From: Halobaculum sp. MBLA0143
GTDB lineage: Archaea > Halobacteriota > Halobacteria > Halobacteriales > Haloferacaceae
Assembly: GCF_041361465.1 (NCBI RefSeq)
Contig: NZ_JBGKAC010000001.1
Span: 62,001 to 126,000, forward strand
Length of the DNA: 64,000 nucleotides
Reading direction: 5' to 3'
The position numbers and the translations under genes are program-made. Below the pieces are notes generated by a model, which was given only the letters and a program-made list of their open reading frames with translations, had not been told where the DNA came from and searched no databases. Below, in pieces: positions 36,307 to 41,693 of the stretch (position 1 is the first letter of the stretch; each line of letters begins with the position of its first letter).

Positions 36307-37122
36307 TCAGTAGACGACGTTGGTGACGAGGTTCGACAGCCCGTTCCGGTCGACTTGGTCCCGGTAGTCGTCGGTGAACACGAGCCGCTGGCGGGGCCGA
36401 CCCATGTCCAGTGTCACCTTCTCCGTCGTGATGACGCCCATCTCCTCCAGCTTCCCCTTCTTCCGGGAGAAGGTCGCCTTGCTGGCGAGGCCGATGTCCT
36501 CGCCCCACTTGCTCACGTCGTAGTGGAGCAGTTCGTGTTTGGCAGCGACCAACAACGACGCCATCACCTCGTCCAGCTCCGAGGTGTCGCGCGCGTCGGC
36601 CGCGCTGTCGAGCACGTGGTCGAAGTCACCCCGCGCCTCCGGGGCGAACTCCGTGTCCATCGTCTCGCGCACGGTCGTCAGCGACGGGGTGCGGAGGTCG
36701 AACGACTCGGCCGCGTCCCAGTTGCGCTCACACCAGCCGTACACGTCCGTCACGAACTCCTCGGCGCGCGTGATGGCGGTCCCCGCGGCCGTGTCCACTT
36801 GGACCGGCACGTACACCGAATCGGGGGTGGCGAACACCGTGGTGTTGTCCGTCGGTTCGCGTTCGGCGAGCGCCAGGCTGCCGGCGTCGATCAGGTCCGC
36901 GGCACGCGAGGCGACGAGGAAGTCACGCCGCACCTTCCGCAGCTCCTCGCCGACGCCGAGGACGCGCACCTCCGGGAGATCGCCGTCGTAGTCCCCGGCC
37001 GACGCGACGAGCTGTTCGACGTCGTCGGCGGTGGCGTTGGTTAGGTACACCGTCCCGTCCGCCTCGGCGAACAGGTCCGCGAGCGTTCCCTCTGGGCCGT
37101 CCGGTACGAATTCTGCACTCAT
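36307..37122 (-). CDS. tbsP: Transcription regulator TbsP (DUF5821 family)
   Basis: A 271-residue regulator. The C-terminal part holds a winged helix (SKWGEDIGLASKATFSRKKG, then KLEEMGVITTEKVTLDMGRP and RQRLVFT). The N-terminal part is an alpha/beta domain (TVYLTNATADDVEQLVA). It matches the family named TbsP in Haloferax, which acts with TrmB in control of glycolytic and gluconeogenic genes. Start ATG 37122, placed by TATA-like GTATTAAGT at 37151-37159 on the minus strand. Confidence 0.8.
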   Translation of the reverse strand: MSAEFVPDGPEGTLADLFAEADGTVYLTNATADDVEQLVASAGDYDGDLPEVRVLGVGEELRKVRRDFLVASRAADLIDAGSLALAEREPTDNTTVFATPDSVYVPVQVDTAAGTAITRAEEFVTDVYGWCERNWDAAESFDLRTPSLTTVRETMDTEFAPEARGDFDHVLDSAADARDTSELDEVMASLLVAAKHELLHYDVSKWGEDIGLASKATFSRKKGKLEEMGVITTEKVTLDMGRPRQRLVFTDDYRDQVDRNGLSNLVTNVVY

Positions 37123-37239
37123 TGCCGTACAGCCTCTACGCACCCATGTTACTTAATACCACTGGTGGGGACGTGTAATACATTCGTAAGTACCCGCTCC
37201 TGCATAATTGAGACTGGTAATTAACGATGTATGTCACAA

Positions 37240-37247
37240 GATATAAG
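37240..37247 (+). promoter_or_regulatory. TATA element for the small secreted peptide gene
   Basis: GATATAAG lies 25-32 bases before the ATG at 37272, supporting that internal start and a leaderless message. The region is AT-rich and shared with the divergent tbsP promoter. Confidence 0.5.
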
Positions 37248-37271
37248 TTCTGTCGGCTGTACCGTGGGAAC

Positions 37272-37478
37272 ATGGCACAAGGGAAGCTCGAACGGCTGCT
37301 CTCGTCGCGGCTCACAGGTGCACTGCTGGCTCGTCCCCGACTGGCGATGCTGGTCGTGTTCCTCGTCCTGTTGGTGGCGTTCCAGGGTGGGGCCGCGGCG
37401 CTGGACGGGGGGTCTGGAGGGTGTGAGTACTTCTGTATGGACACACAGGACAACTCTAGCACGAACAGCGGACCCTGA
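37272..37478 (+). CDS. Small secreted or membrane peptide with Cys pair
   Basis: A 68-residue protein. Residues 1-20 are basic (MAQGKLERLLSSRLTGALLA), residues about 23-41 are hydrophobic (LAMLVVFLVLLVAFQGGAAA) and the end has GGCEYFCMDTQD. It looks like a signal-anchor with possible cleavage after AAA-LDGG. It resembles the short DUF7503-type haloarchaeal peptides. It converges on the CHAT protein gene with three bases between stops. Function unknown. Confidence 0.6.
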   Translation: MAQGKLERLLSSRLTGALLARPRLAMLVVFLVLLVAFQGGAAALDGGSGGCEYFCMDTQDNSSTNSGP

Positions 37479-37481
37479 CCG

Positions 37482-39719
37482 TCAGACGCCGTCTATCTCC
37501 TCCAGAATCGTCTCGGCCCAGTAGAGGTCTCCTTCGTGCACGACTGGTCCTCCGAATCCGTTCAGGTAGCGCTTCAGCTCAGAAAGATCTTTCATGTATA
37601 TTCGAGACGTTCCCAACAGGTGTTGTGGGTCGCTGTCTTCTTCGAGCGAATCGTGCACCTCTGCACCCGTGATCCACGGCGAGGACTGCTCGATTAACAA
37701 CGAGTACGTGCCGTCGTCGTTCGTCGAAATGAAGAACGCTTCCGGCACCAGGGAGTCGTTCTGTGTCAGGACGTGTGTCCCGTCGCCGACGACGGCGTAG
37801 TCTTTCGGTGTCAGCAGTTGGCCGCGGGTGTAGTCTAACGCCCGCTCGATACAGAATCCGTTCATGATGAGCCGGGCGAACGCTACCCCGACTTTCACCG
37901 CGTCGTCGTTGGTGACACTCTCGAAGGTGACGCCGCCGCCGACGCTCCCTTTCCGGACGAGCTGTCTCCCCTCCGGGAAGGAGCCACAGGCGTTGAGGAA
38001 GAACGTCTGGGCGTTCGACTCCCGGAGCGTCGACGCCGAGAAGAACCCGTTCGTACACTCCAATCCCTTCTCGTCCCGGTGGCCGATAAAGTGGACCAGA
38101 TCGTTGCGCCGTTCGAAGATCCGAGCCAACTCGCTCGTCGAGACGTTCTCTCGCAGCGTCAGGTCGATGTTCAGGTCCTGTGCCCGGCGCCGGTAGTGGC
38201 CGACGATCTCCTCCGTCTCGTCGCGCATGTCCGCCTCGTCGGCGTCCGACAGCCCGAGACTCCGCTGGCCGCTGTCGTTGACGACCGCCACGACGGACAG
38301 GTCCGAATCCGGATCGTCGAGGTACTTCTGGCGGTTCTCGTACGCCTCCGGCAGCGTCTTGAACACGTCGATGGGCACCTTCTCGGCGAGCCAGCCGTGT
38401 GTCTTCCCGGGTCCGAGTGTCGGCTTGACCAGATCAACGTTGGAGATCTCCCGCGTGACACGCAGCGTCTCGTCGGTCCCTTCGACACGAGGGTGTTCCG
38501 TCGGCCCCGAGCGGCTGGGGGGACGCTCGACGGCAGACTCCGCCGGGTGGCTCTTGGTCCCATCGGCGTGCCAAGCGTTCTCCCAGTCCACGTCGTAGCC
38601 ATCGTTGACGGTGAGCCGGAGCCACTCTTTCTTCGACAGCGACTCCGACTCCGGCGCGAACAGGTGCGGGACGTTCGACAGGAGGTGCGGCAGCGTCTCG
38701 ACGGTGTCGTACGTCGGCGCGACGTGCATCCCGAGGTGCCACTCCGGGAAGGCGTCCCGCACGTCCGCGAACGGGACTTCGAGGTAGCGGGTGACTCGCT
38801 CCGACATCGACGCGTCGTACATCCTGTCCGTGTCGAGCCCGAGCTCGTCGCCGACCCACGAGACTGACAGCTCCCCGCCGTGTGGGCCAGCACTGCGCGC
38901 GAGACAGTCGAGGTGGAAGGTTCGCTCCAGCAACGCAGCGACATCGTGTTGATACTGCCGGCCACGTCCCAACCGTTCGATACACCCGTCTACGTCGAGG
39001 TACGGGTCGATTCCCGAGACGACCTCGAATCGTGCTCCGAGATAGTGTGCCAGCGACGCGCCGGTCGTGAGGTACGTCAAGTCCGGCGGCACGACGAGTT
39101 CGATCCCGGTGTTCGGGCGATTCTCCCGGATCGACCGCGGGACGTGTGTCGTCTCCCCGAACTCGACGTACGGCGGCTGCTCGCGCATCGATGGCCACGT
39201 CCGATCCGGCGATGTCGTGTCGTTGCCGACCGCCAGCGCCGACAGCGCCGTCGCCACCCCCTCCGGCGTCCGTTCGACGGTCACCAGCTCGTCGGGCACG
39301 TCCACGCGGCTCTCGAACCCGATGGACACCCGACGCGACTCCGGGAACTCGATCCAGGCCCGCCGGGAACTCTCTATCCGTAGCGTCGCCGGCCCGTGGA
39401 ACCGGACGAACGCTCGAACCCCAGCCCCGATGCGGACCAGGTACGACTCGGCGTCGAGCTGGAGCCGGCCGTCACTCAGAGTGATCTGCTCTCCCCCCGA
39501 CAACGGAATAGCGACGAGGAGGACCGGCGGGAACCCCAGTGTCGACGCCGACCCGGCCACCGTCACGTCCGGGTCGTCCGGTCCGGTGTCCTGCTCCGAC
39601 AGCGCCGCCGCTACCGAAGGCGGGTCCTCGGTCCCACCCCACCCCTCCGTCTCCACTGTCACGGTGTTCTTCGCGGCGTCGACGACCCGGAAGCCACCGT
39701 TCGTCCACTGGAGGCGCAC
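37482..39719 (-). CDS. Large protein with C-terminal CHAT (caspase-like) domain
   Basis: A 745-residue protein. The C-terminal part (about 420-680) fits a CHAT protease: DLVHFIGHRDEKG gives the catalytic His547 (HFIGH at 543-547) and FFLNACGSFPEG gives Cys578, with the hydrophobic strand spacing of caspase-like folds. The first 400 residues look like two beta-rich domains of no known family (LSDGRLQLDAESYLVRIGAG...). No signal peptide or membrane helix. It starts with GTG at 39719. No TPR, STAND or gasdermin-type partner is next to it, so the target is unknown. A role in controlled proteolysis or defence is inferred. Confidence 0.75.
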   Translation of the reverse strand: MRLQWTNGGFRVVDAAKNTVTVETEGWGGTEDPPSVAAALSEQDTGPDDPDVTVAGSASTLGFPPVLLVAIPLSGGEQITLSDGRLQLDAESYLVRIGAGVRAFVRFHGPATLRIESSRRAWIEFPESRRVSIGFESRVDVPDELVTVERTPEGVATALSALAVGNDTTSPDRTWPSMREQPPYVEFGETTHVPRSIRENRPNTGIELVVPPDLTYLTTGASLAHYLGARFEVVSGIDPYLDVDGCIERLGRGRQYQHDVAALLERTFHLDCLARSAGPHGGELSVSWVGDELGLDTDRMYDASMSERVTRYLEVPFADVRDAFPEWHLGMHVAPTYDTVETLPHLLSNVPHLFAPESESLSKKEWLRLTVNDGYDVDWENAWHADGTKSHPAESAVERPPSRSGPTEHPRVEGTDETLRVTREISNVDLVKPTLGPGKTHGWLAEKVPIDVFKTLPEAYENRQKYLDDPDSDLSVVAVVNDSGQRSLGLSDADEADMRDETEEIVGHYRRRAQDLNIDLTLRENVSTSELARIFERRNDLVHFIGHRDEKGLECTNGFFSASTLRESNAQTFFLNACGSFPEGRQLVRKGSVGGGVTFESVTNDDAVKVGVAFARLIMNGFCIERALDYTRGQLLTPKDYAVVGDGTHVLTQNDSLVPEAFFISTNDDGTYSLLIEQSSPWITGAEVHDSLEEDSDPQHLLGTSRIYMKDLSELKRYLNGFGGPVVHEGDLYWAETILEEIDGV

Positions 39720-40693: not shown

Positions 40694-41551
40694 TCACGGC
40701 TCTCGGACGACCGGCAGCGACTCCGGGACACGGAACGATCCCCCCAGCCAGTCGCCGGCGACGAGCGCCTCGAAGACCGCCCCCGTCGCCGGCCGCTCCC
40801 CCAGCAACGCGGCCCCGTAGGTGATCGGCTTCCCGCGGACGACCTGTCCGGACGGGAGTTCGTACGACTGTGTCGCGTAGTGGTCGGCCAGCCGCGGGAC
40901 CGCGAGGTTCACTCGCGGCGGGAGTGGCCGGAACGAGACCCCGTGGTCGACGGCCATGTTGCGGTAGGCGACGGCGGCGTCGACAGAACCAGTCTCCACG
41001 AGCGCGAGCAGCTCCGTCTCCGGGACCAACTGATCCGGCGACAGCAACGCCGGGTACTCCCGCTCCCACCGCTCGGCGGCCAGCGCCAGCGCGAACAACG
41101 TCCGGTAGCCCAGTGGGTCCGCGTCCGGGTCCGTCCGGGCGAGTCGTGCCTCGTCGGCGAACAACGGGTCCAACGGCACCGGCGCGTCGCCGACCCGCCG
41201 CCCGACCGGGGTGTCCGCGTGCGCGACCACCAGCGAGTTGGCCGCGAACGCAGTGTAGCGGTCCGCGAGCCCCTCGAACAACACCGGGTCCGCCAGGACG
41301 AGCAGATCCGGCTCCCGCAGGCCTTCGGCGACTAACCGGGCGCAGGCGGCCGACCCACGCGTCTCGACGCTCAGGTCGACGTCCACCTCCTCCCGGAACC
41401 GAACGTCGAGCGCGCGCTGGAGACTCCCGGCCGCGAGCACGGACACGGAGTCGTCGTCGCGGCCCGCACAGCCGGCTGCCAGAGTCCCGGCGACGGCCGC
41501 GCCACCGGCCAGTGCACGGCGCCTGCTCACTCGATGCGAGTGATCCGTCAC
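40694..41551 (-). CDS. Extracellular solute-binding lipoprotein (ModA/WtpA-like)
   Basis: A 285-residue periplasmic-type binding protein of the molybdate/tungstate class. The Tat-type signal RRRALAGGAAVAGTLAAGC has a lipobox, so it is membrane-anchored outside the cell. SVLAAGSLQRALD is the typical first strand and loop of ModA-like proteins, and DADPLGYRTLFAL and VDAAVAYRNMA fit the hinge and second lobe. The GTG start at 41551 is tentative; GTG 41560 is close by. No permease or ATPase gene is adjacent, so the transporter partner is elsewhere. Confidence 0.8.
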   Translation of the reverse strand: MTDHSHRVSRRRALAGGAAVAGTLAAGCAGRDDDSVSVLAAGSLQRALDVRFREEVDVDLSVETRGSAACARLVAEGLREPDLLVLADPVLFEGLADRYTAFAANSLVVAHADTPVGRRVGDAPVPLDPLFADEARLARTDPDADPLGYRTLFALALAAERWEREYPALLSPDQLVPETELLALVETGSVDAAVAYRNMAVDHGVSFRPLPPRVNLAVPRLADHYATQSYELPSGQVVRGKPITYGAALLGERPATGAVFEALVAGDWLGGSFRVPESLPVVREP

Positions 41552-41693
41552 TGCCTGCACCGTTCGTTCGCTGCGTATCTGTCTCTTTCTGTTCGGAGTA
41601 TCGGCCACGACGACGGTGGTTACCCTCCGTGTCGGATTCCGAGACGAGATACAGTGTGTCAAAGTTGAAGTTACACGGTGTGAACTCTGTCCC

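Follow-up and report, generated by a model that had tools for sequence, protein, structure and literature searches.

Tail-to-tail pairing of a CHAT-like protease gene with a membrane micropeptide gene in haloarchaea

In the window (the whole 64,000-nucleotide stretch of Halobaculum sp. MBLA0143 DNA analyzed here), the gene of a predicted caspase-fold protease of the CHAT type converges on the gene of a small membrane peptide, and we found this tail-to-tail arrangement to be a conserved trait extending over nearly the whole haloarchaeal group. The strongest evidence for a family-wide partnership came from the reverse test, in which all 40 sampled loci of the peptide family DUF7503, taken from 40 genomes, lay tail to tail with a CHAT homologue. 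The enzyme is of a known kind, and what is new is that a convergent arrangement with a membrane micropeptide gene has been conserved. We give about an even chance to the proposal that the two genes form a conserved system, where a cytoplasmic CHAT protease gates a dedicated membrane micropeptide that is most likely its substrate.

Results

Layout of the locus

The stop codons of the peptide and CHAT genes are 3 bases apart, and the TbsP-like gene is divergent from the peptide gene and downstream of the CHAT gene (Table 1).

Table 1 Coordinates of the features at the CHAT-peptide locus, counted from the first letter of the window
Feature	Position	Strand	Basis
CHAT-like (caspase-fold) cysteine protease gene	37482..39719	-	ORF with GTG start, 745 aa; fold match; Pfam matches of homologues
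Convergent 68-aa membrane/signal-anchored micropeptide, ending Gly-Pro	37272..37478	+	Family-wide linkage, coding selection, anatomy
TATA-like element GATATAAGTT	37240..37249	+	~30 nt before the start codon of the peptide gene
TbsP-like transcriptional regulator	36307..37122	-	Pfam TbsP_N and HTH_TbsP_C matches
CHAT N-terminal domain, residues 1-386 (predicted)	38562..39719	-	AlphaFold2 model
CHAT catalytic domain, residues 427-745 (predicted)	37485..38441	-	Model, pLDDT profile, Foldseek
HFIGH motif, residues 543-547 (H543, presumed catalytic H547)	38079..38093	-	Homologue conservation
Presumed catalytic Cys578 in LNACGS	37986..37988	-	Homologue conservation

A reading made earlier from the sequence only had also placed a divergent direct repeat ahead of the protease gene. 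No repeat is present at 37100-37300, and all that precedes the CHAT gene is one imperfect 12-nt pair (39737 and 39764), of a class that the repeat-finding tool flags as often due to chance; nothing supports a direct repeat with a function here. An AATTAAC element at 37219-37225 (+ strand) precedes the TATA-like box by about 20 nt. The same element is found upstream of the peptide genes of loci L069 and L120, and it is a possible candidate operator. A gene at 40694-41662 (- strand) encodes a substrate-binding protein (SBP_bac_11) that resembles the tungstate-binding WtpA but scores far under the WtpA cut-off.

Fold and conservation of the CHAT protein

AlphaFold2 modeled the window CHAT protein with a pLDDT of 84.4 and a pTM of 0.85 (57-sequence alignment), as two domains separated by a linker that the pLDDT profile marks as disordered (residues 387-426). 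When searched against the PDB with Foldseek, the best match was SAVED-CHAT (E 1.5e-6), followed by gingipain R (2.7e-5), separase (8e-5), and then TPR-CHAT and caspases; by this model, the C-terminal domain has a caspase/CHAT-like alpha/beta fold. The structure prediction proposed in the sequence-only reading thus came out caspase-like for the catalytic part, while the first ~400 residues, which it had assigned to no known family, were confidently modeled with no confident known relative. Residues 1-387 (pLDDT 89.9) form a beta-rich part and an alpha/beta part, for which the best Foldseek match in the PDB had an E of only 5e-3 and a TM below 0.2.

The motifs on which that reading was founded, HFIGH at 543-547 and NACGS around Cys578 of the 745-residue protein, were borne out. 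H543, G546, H547, C578, and S580 are invariant in the 57-sequence alignment and kept at 95-97% in 93 full-length homologues, so the H...GH/NAC spacing is not a product of chance, and H547 and C578 are the presumed catalytic dyad. C555 is also nearly invariant among the homologues.

Direct searches of both window proteins (protease and peptide) against Pfam, NCBIfam, PADLOC, and PDB sequences gave nothing significant. The window CHAT protein accordingly had no match to the Pfam CHAT family (PF12770), which was matched by 10 of 24 homologues (best E 2.1e-5). No TPR was matched by Pfam in the protein or its homologues, and no membrane segment is evident in the protein. In plasmid annotation, most CHAT homologues are called "hypothetical protein" and only rarely caspase family or CHAT domain; in the two annotated loci inspected, the peptide was present by sequence yet unlisted in a gene table that declares itself incomplete.

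Anatomy and selection of the peptide

The window peptide carries a single strongly hydrophobic segment (ARPR...GGAAA...NSGP) and ends in ...NSSTNSGP. Against the nearest relatives from its own genus, it shows a dN of 0.37-0.42 and a dS of 1.0-1.2, and the ORF is therefore coding. The earlier description of a 68-residue signal-anchored peptide that converges on the protease with 3 bases between them was upheld. Purifying selection acts on the peptides, with a median dN/dS of 0.23 in the core ones.

Members of the family (43-100 aa) follow one plan: xP-R/K, a hydrophobic stretch of ~20 residues closed by AxA, a tail without charges, and Gly-Pro at the C-terminus. The Pro anchor is present in 132 of 138 peptides, directly followed by R or K in 89%. 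The hydrophobic segment has residue-specific positions (P, L, F, Q-A-G); small residues at its end make up an AxA-like site, with A or V at +19 in 83% and A at +21 in 80%, and a short variable tail follows. An exact GP terminus was found in 117 of the 138 peptides, and GP plus 1-9 residues in 18 more, where the composition of the tails would give a GP terminus in 0.6%. In the 75 short peptides, charged residues make up 1.6% of the tail, which is striking for haloarchaeal sequence, and pN/pS rises from 0.27 in the hydrophobic part, the most constrained, to 0.42 in the tail, the least constrained.

The short peptides are members of Pfam DUF7503 (PF24335), with E down to 6e-22. No match to this family was obtained for the window peptide in a Pfam search, but it has the xP-R/K start, the ~20 hydrophobic residues, the GP end, and the convergence with CHAT that are typical of DUF7503; it is a divergent relative of that family, longer than the DUF7503 peptides. 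The cysteines by which the sequence-only reading had characterized the peptide did not prove to be a defining trait, as the two Cys recur only in close relatives (L059, L064, L069, and L049) and not family-wide.

Upstream of 120 homologous peptide genes, the sequence is richest in A/T between -34 and -26 relative to the ATG, where archaeal mRNAs with short leaders should have such a peak. The TATA-like GATATAAGTT lies at that distance in the window, and therefore supports both the ATG at 37272 as the start and near-leaderless transcription.

Pairing of the two genes across haloarchaea

CHAT homologues were found in 29 of the 40 related genomes searched, with 11 CHAT genes in the genome of the window. 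Of the 96 homologous genes in the first set, 64 had a convergent ORF for a small membrane peptide whose end is GP or GP plus a few residues, where the same ORF search at randomly chosen positions of these loci succeeded 24 times in 3131 (0.8%). Peptides were then scored for 219 distinct homologues (203 active, 15 dead, and one with too little flank): a convergent small membrane peptide adjoins 137 of the 203 whose active-site residues are intact and whose flanks could be read. The co-occurrence of peptide and CHAT that the sequence-only reading had proposed to check is therefore real, and its view that opposite strands weaken the case for a partnership was overturned: the tail-to-tail order is itself the conserved trait, in these 137 loci as in the 40 DUF7503 loci.

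From the side of the peptide, ~86% of the haloarchaeal genomes (250 of 292) have DUF7503, mostly as a single copy, a near-universal distribution that argues against a classical defence island. It was also found in the control genome of Haloferax volcanii, and none was found in the CHAT-less genomes searched (G008, G013, and G023). The dependence is asymmetric, as no sampled peptide lacked a CHAT gene while CHAT without an adjacent peptide does occur. The stop-to-stop gap ranges from -17 to +260 in the 40 DUF7503 loci and from -35 to +310 over the wider homologue set; in most loci the two stops touch or overlap, and an overlap of exactly 4 nt is frequent. Four homologues come from outside Halobacteria, from one other family of the same phylum (L261-L264, in genomes G312, G321, G330, and G339); they have no recognizable peptide, and two of them keep the dyad by alignment.

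Dead homologues and loci without a peptide

The peptide adjoins 137 of 203 active CHAT genes versus 1 of 15 dead ones (Fisher p 4e-6). The catalytic losses amount to only five independent events on the tree, none against the trend, and the association is therefore suggestive. The C-to-S homologue L056 kept its peptide. Dead CHAT paralogues with an N-terminal domain and without a peptide (L269, L271, L272, L275, L276, L279, L280, L048, L080, and L091) are probably pseudo-proteases, an active copy being encoded elsewhere in several of their genomes. Conversely, 66 catalytically intact homologues have no recognizable adjacent peptide, which implies that the enzyme does not need a neighboring copy to work. 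A TbsP gene adjoins 46 of these, and a search for a hidden peptide in such loci revealed none that could be recognized.

TbsP-like regulator and other neighbors

In the clade of the window, 91 loci have a TbsP-type gene on the CHAT strand, no more than 1.2 kb beyond the 3' end of CHAT (L039, L041, L042, L049, L052, and L128 among those with such a neighbor). The peptide is present or absent there as one unit: 45 loci carry it in reverse between CHAT and TbsP, and 46 lack it. CHAT, peptide, and TbsP-like regulator are thus a three-gene cassette in this clade. The window protein scores 274 bits on the NCBIfam TbsP model (NF047393), below the equivalog cut-off of 300, and is therefore probably a TbsP paralogue, while the neighbor in L128 exceeds the cut-off (418.7 bits).

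No constant third gene was found in the core DUF7503 loci. DUF7504 and HalX response regulators recur near a minority of them, and DUF7504 (PF24336) directly adjoins a minority of the core CHAT-DUF7503 pairs (e.g., L140:5577-6329); such neighborhoods suggest that DUF7503 and DUF7504 may belong to one pathway. A kinship of TbsP with DUF7504 found no support in profile comparison, which gave it a probability of only 0.3%. Near the core loci, no import or receptor gene is constant; the recurring neighbor clusters include no CRISPR or CBASS genes, the PADLOC models of known anti-phage defence had no match in the two window proteins, and no homologues were found in phages or viral contigs.

Discussion

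In the proposed mechanism, the peptide would insert with its N-terminus inside and its short, uncharged, Gly-Pro-ended tail outside, a topology suggested by the R/K that flank the hydrophobic segment and by the lack of charge in the tail, and signal peptidase might clip it at the AxA site. The N-terminal domain of CHAT would sense a signal, and the protease would gate the peptide, most likely by cutting it as a dedicated substrate, so that the membrane peptide is switched on or off. In the clade of the window, the TbsP-like regulator would probably control transcription of the peptide. Substrates of CHAT proteases are often encoded beside the protease (PMC9729208); this neighbor rule, the asymmetric dependence, and the missing peptide beside dead enzymes are what point to a protease-substrate relation. 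Against cutting by CHAT, the protease lacks an evident membrane segment, the predicted cytoplasmic part of the peptide amounts to only ~15 residues, and the tail with the GP end, the most invariant feature, is predicted to lie outside the cell, so cytoplasmic cutting leaves it unexplained. Nor does the mechanism account for the conserved tail-to-tail order or for the active CHAT genes that have no peptide beside them. A wider reading, possible although we doubt it, is that of a near-universal haloarchaeal signaling or killing switch of a novel type: a caspase-fold protease would process a dedicated single-span, GP-ended micropeptide, duplication in some genera would have given many diverging CHAT-peptide-regulator cassettes, and the protease family might also include the gene for the caspase-like activity of H. 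volcanii.

The peptide could instead be a membrane anchor or allosteric regulator of CHAT, tethering the protease to the membrane or keeping it inactive, the true substrate being encoded elsewhere. The hydrophobic segment as the best-conserved part of the peptide, its residue-specific positions, which suggest a specific contact, and the peptide retained by the C-to-S homologue all fit such a role, but the absence of a peptide beside 14 of 15 dead homologues speaks for catalysis rather than mere binding, and many active homologues manage without an adjacent peptide; we consider it unlikely. The peptide as a secreted signal seems to us quite improbable: signal peptidase would free a GP-ended oligopeptide of 8-10 residues (for the window peptide, a piece of ~25 residues with two Cys) to be sensed by the CHAT N-domain or a TbsP-like regulator. 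While the AxA-like site, the variable tail, the X-Pro end, and, in one clade, a TbsP-like gene transcribed away from that of the peptide are what such a signal would have, the core is conserved residue by residue, unlike a plain signal peptide, the tail that would carry the message is the least constrained part, and no import or receptor gene is constantly nearby.

A regulated-death or anti-virus system, in which a triggered CHAT makes the peptide membrane-disrupting, as with CHAT proteases and bacterial gasdermins, would account for the fold kinship with SAVED-CHAT and TPR-CHAT and for expansions such as that in the window's genome. Its usual single copy in most haloarchaeal genomes rather resembles core physiology, however, and the lack of a PADLOC match, a viral homologue, or a constant third gene in the core loci makes this reading unlikely as well. 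Finally, the convergence could matter at the mRNA level only, the overlapping 3' ends exerting mutual antisense control over proteins that do not interact. The abutting or 4-nt-overlapping stops would suit this, but the gap is variable, the peptide sequence itself is conserved and under selection, and the peptide comes and goes as a unit in the TbsP loci, so we regard it as very unlikely.

These results offer a caspase-fold family that is common among haloarchaea, a group amenable to genetics, and that already comes with a partner. DUF7503 gains a partner, and the TbsP family is now linked to a protease cassette. Convergent genes are usually taken to be unlinked, yet such a pair can form a functional unit that is conserved. 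We found no literature on DUF7503 or on a haloarchaeal CHAT-peptide pair in a search that fell short of subscription papers, and an earlier description is possible.

Comparison with known systems

Caspase-like activity has been reported in H. volcanii with no gene known, and archaeal genomes are said to be without clear caspase homologues (PMC3615174). Both this activity and the CHAT family are haloarchaeal, and H. volcanii has DUF7503, beside which a CHAT gene would be expected; the family thus supplies a candidate gene for a long-unexplained activity, and H. volcanii makes the link directly testable. The Pfam entry for DUF7503 assigns neither a function nor a partner, and the window peptide is longer, carries two Cys, and does not match its model.

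Like other CHAT proteases (PF12770; SAVED-CHAT, 8tl0; TPR-CHAT/Csx29, 7y84 and 8d9g), the haloarchaeal proteins have a predicted caspase/separase fold with an H...C dyad, a separate N-terminal half joined by a linker, and a candidate substrate encoded next door. Unlike in SAVED-CHAT and TPR-CHAT, the N-domain confidently matches neither SAVED nor TPR, and unlike for TPR-CHAT/Csx29, the partner of gRAMP/Cas7-11, no CRISPR genes are among the recurring neighbors. The partner also differs from that of known CHAT systems in being a convergent membrane peptide of 43-100 aa, and the pair in being near-universal in haloarchaea. A further analogy may be the bacterial gasdermin with its adjacent CHAT protease (PMC9729208): the haloarchaeal peptide, with its one span, is far too small for a gasdermin and its gene is convergent rather than operonic, but both arrangements would place a caspase-like protease beside a membrane-acting partner.
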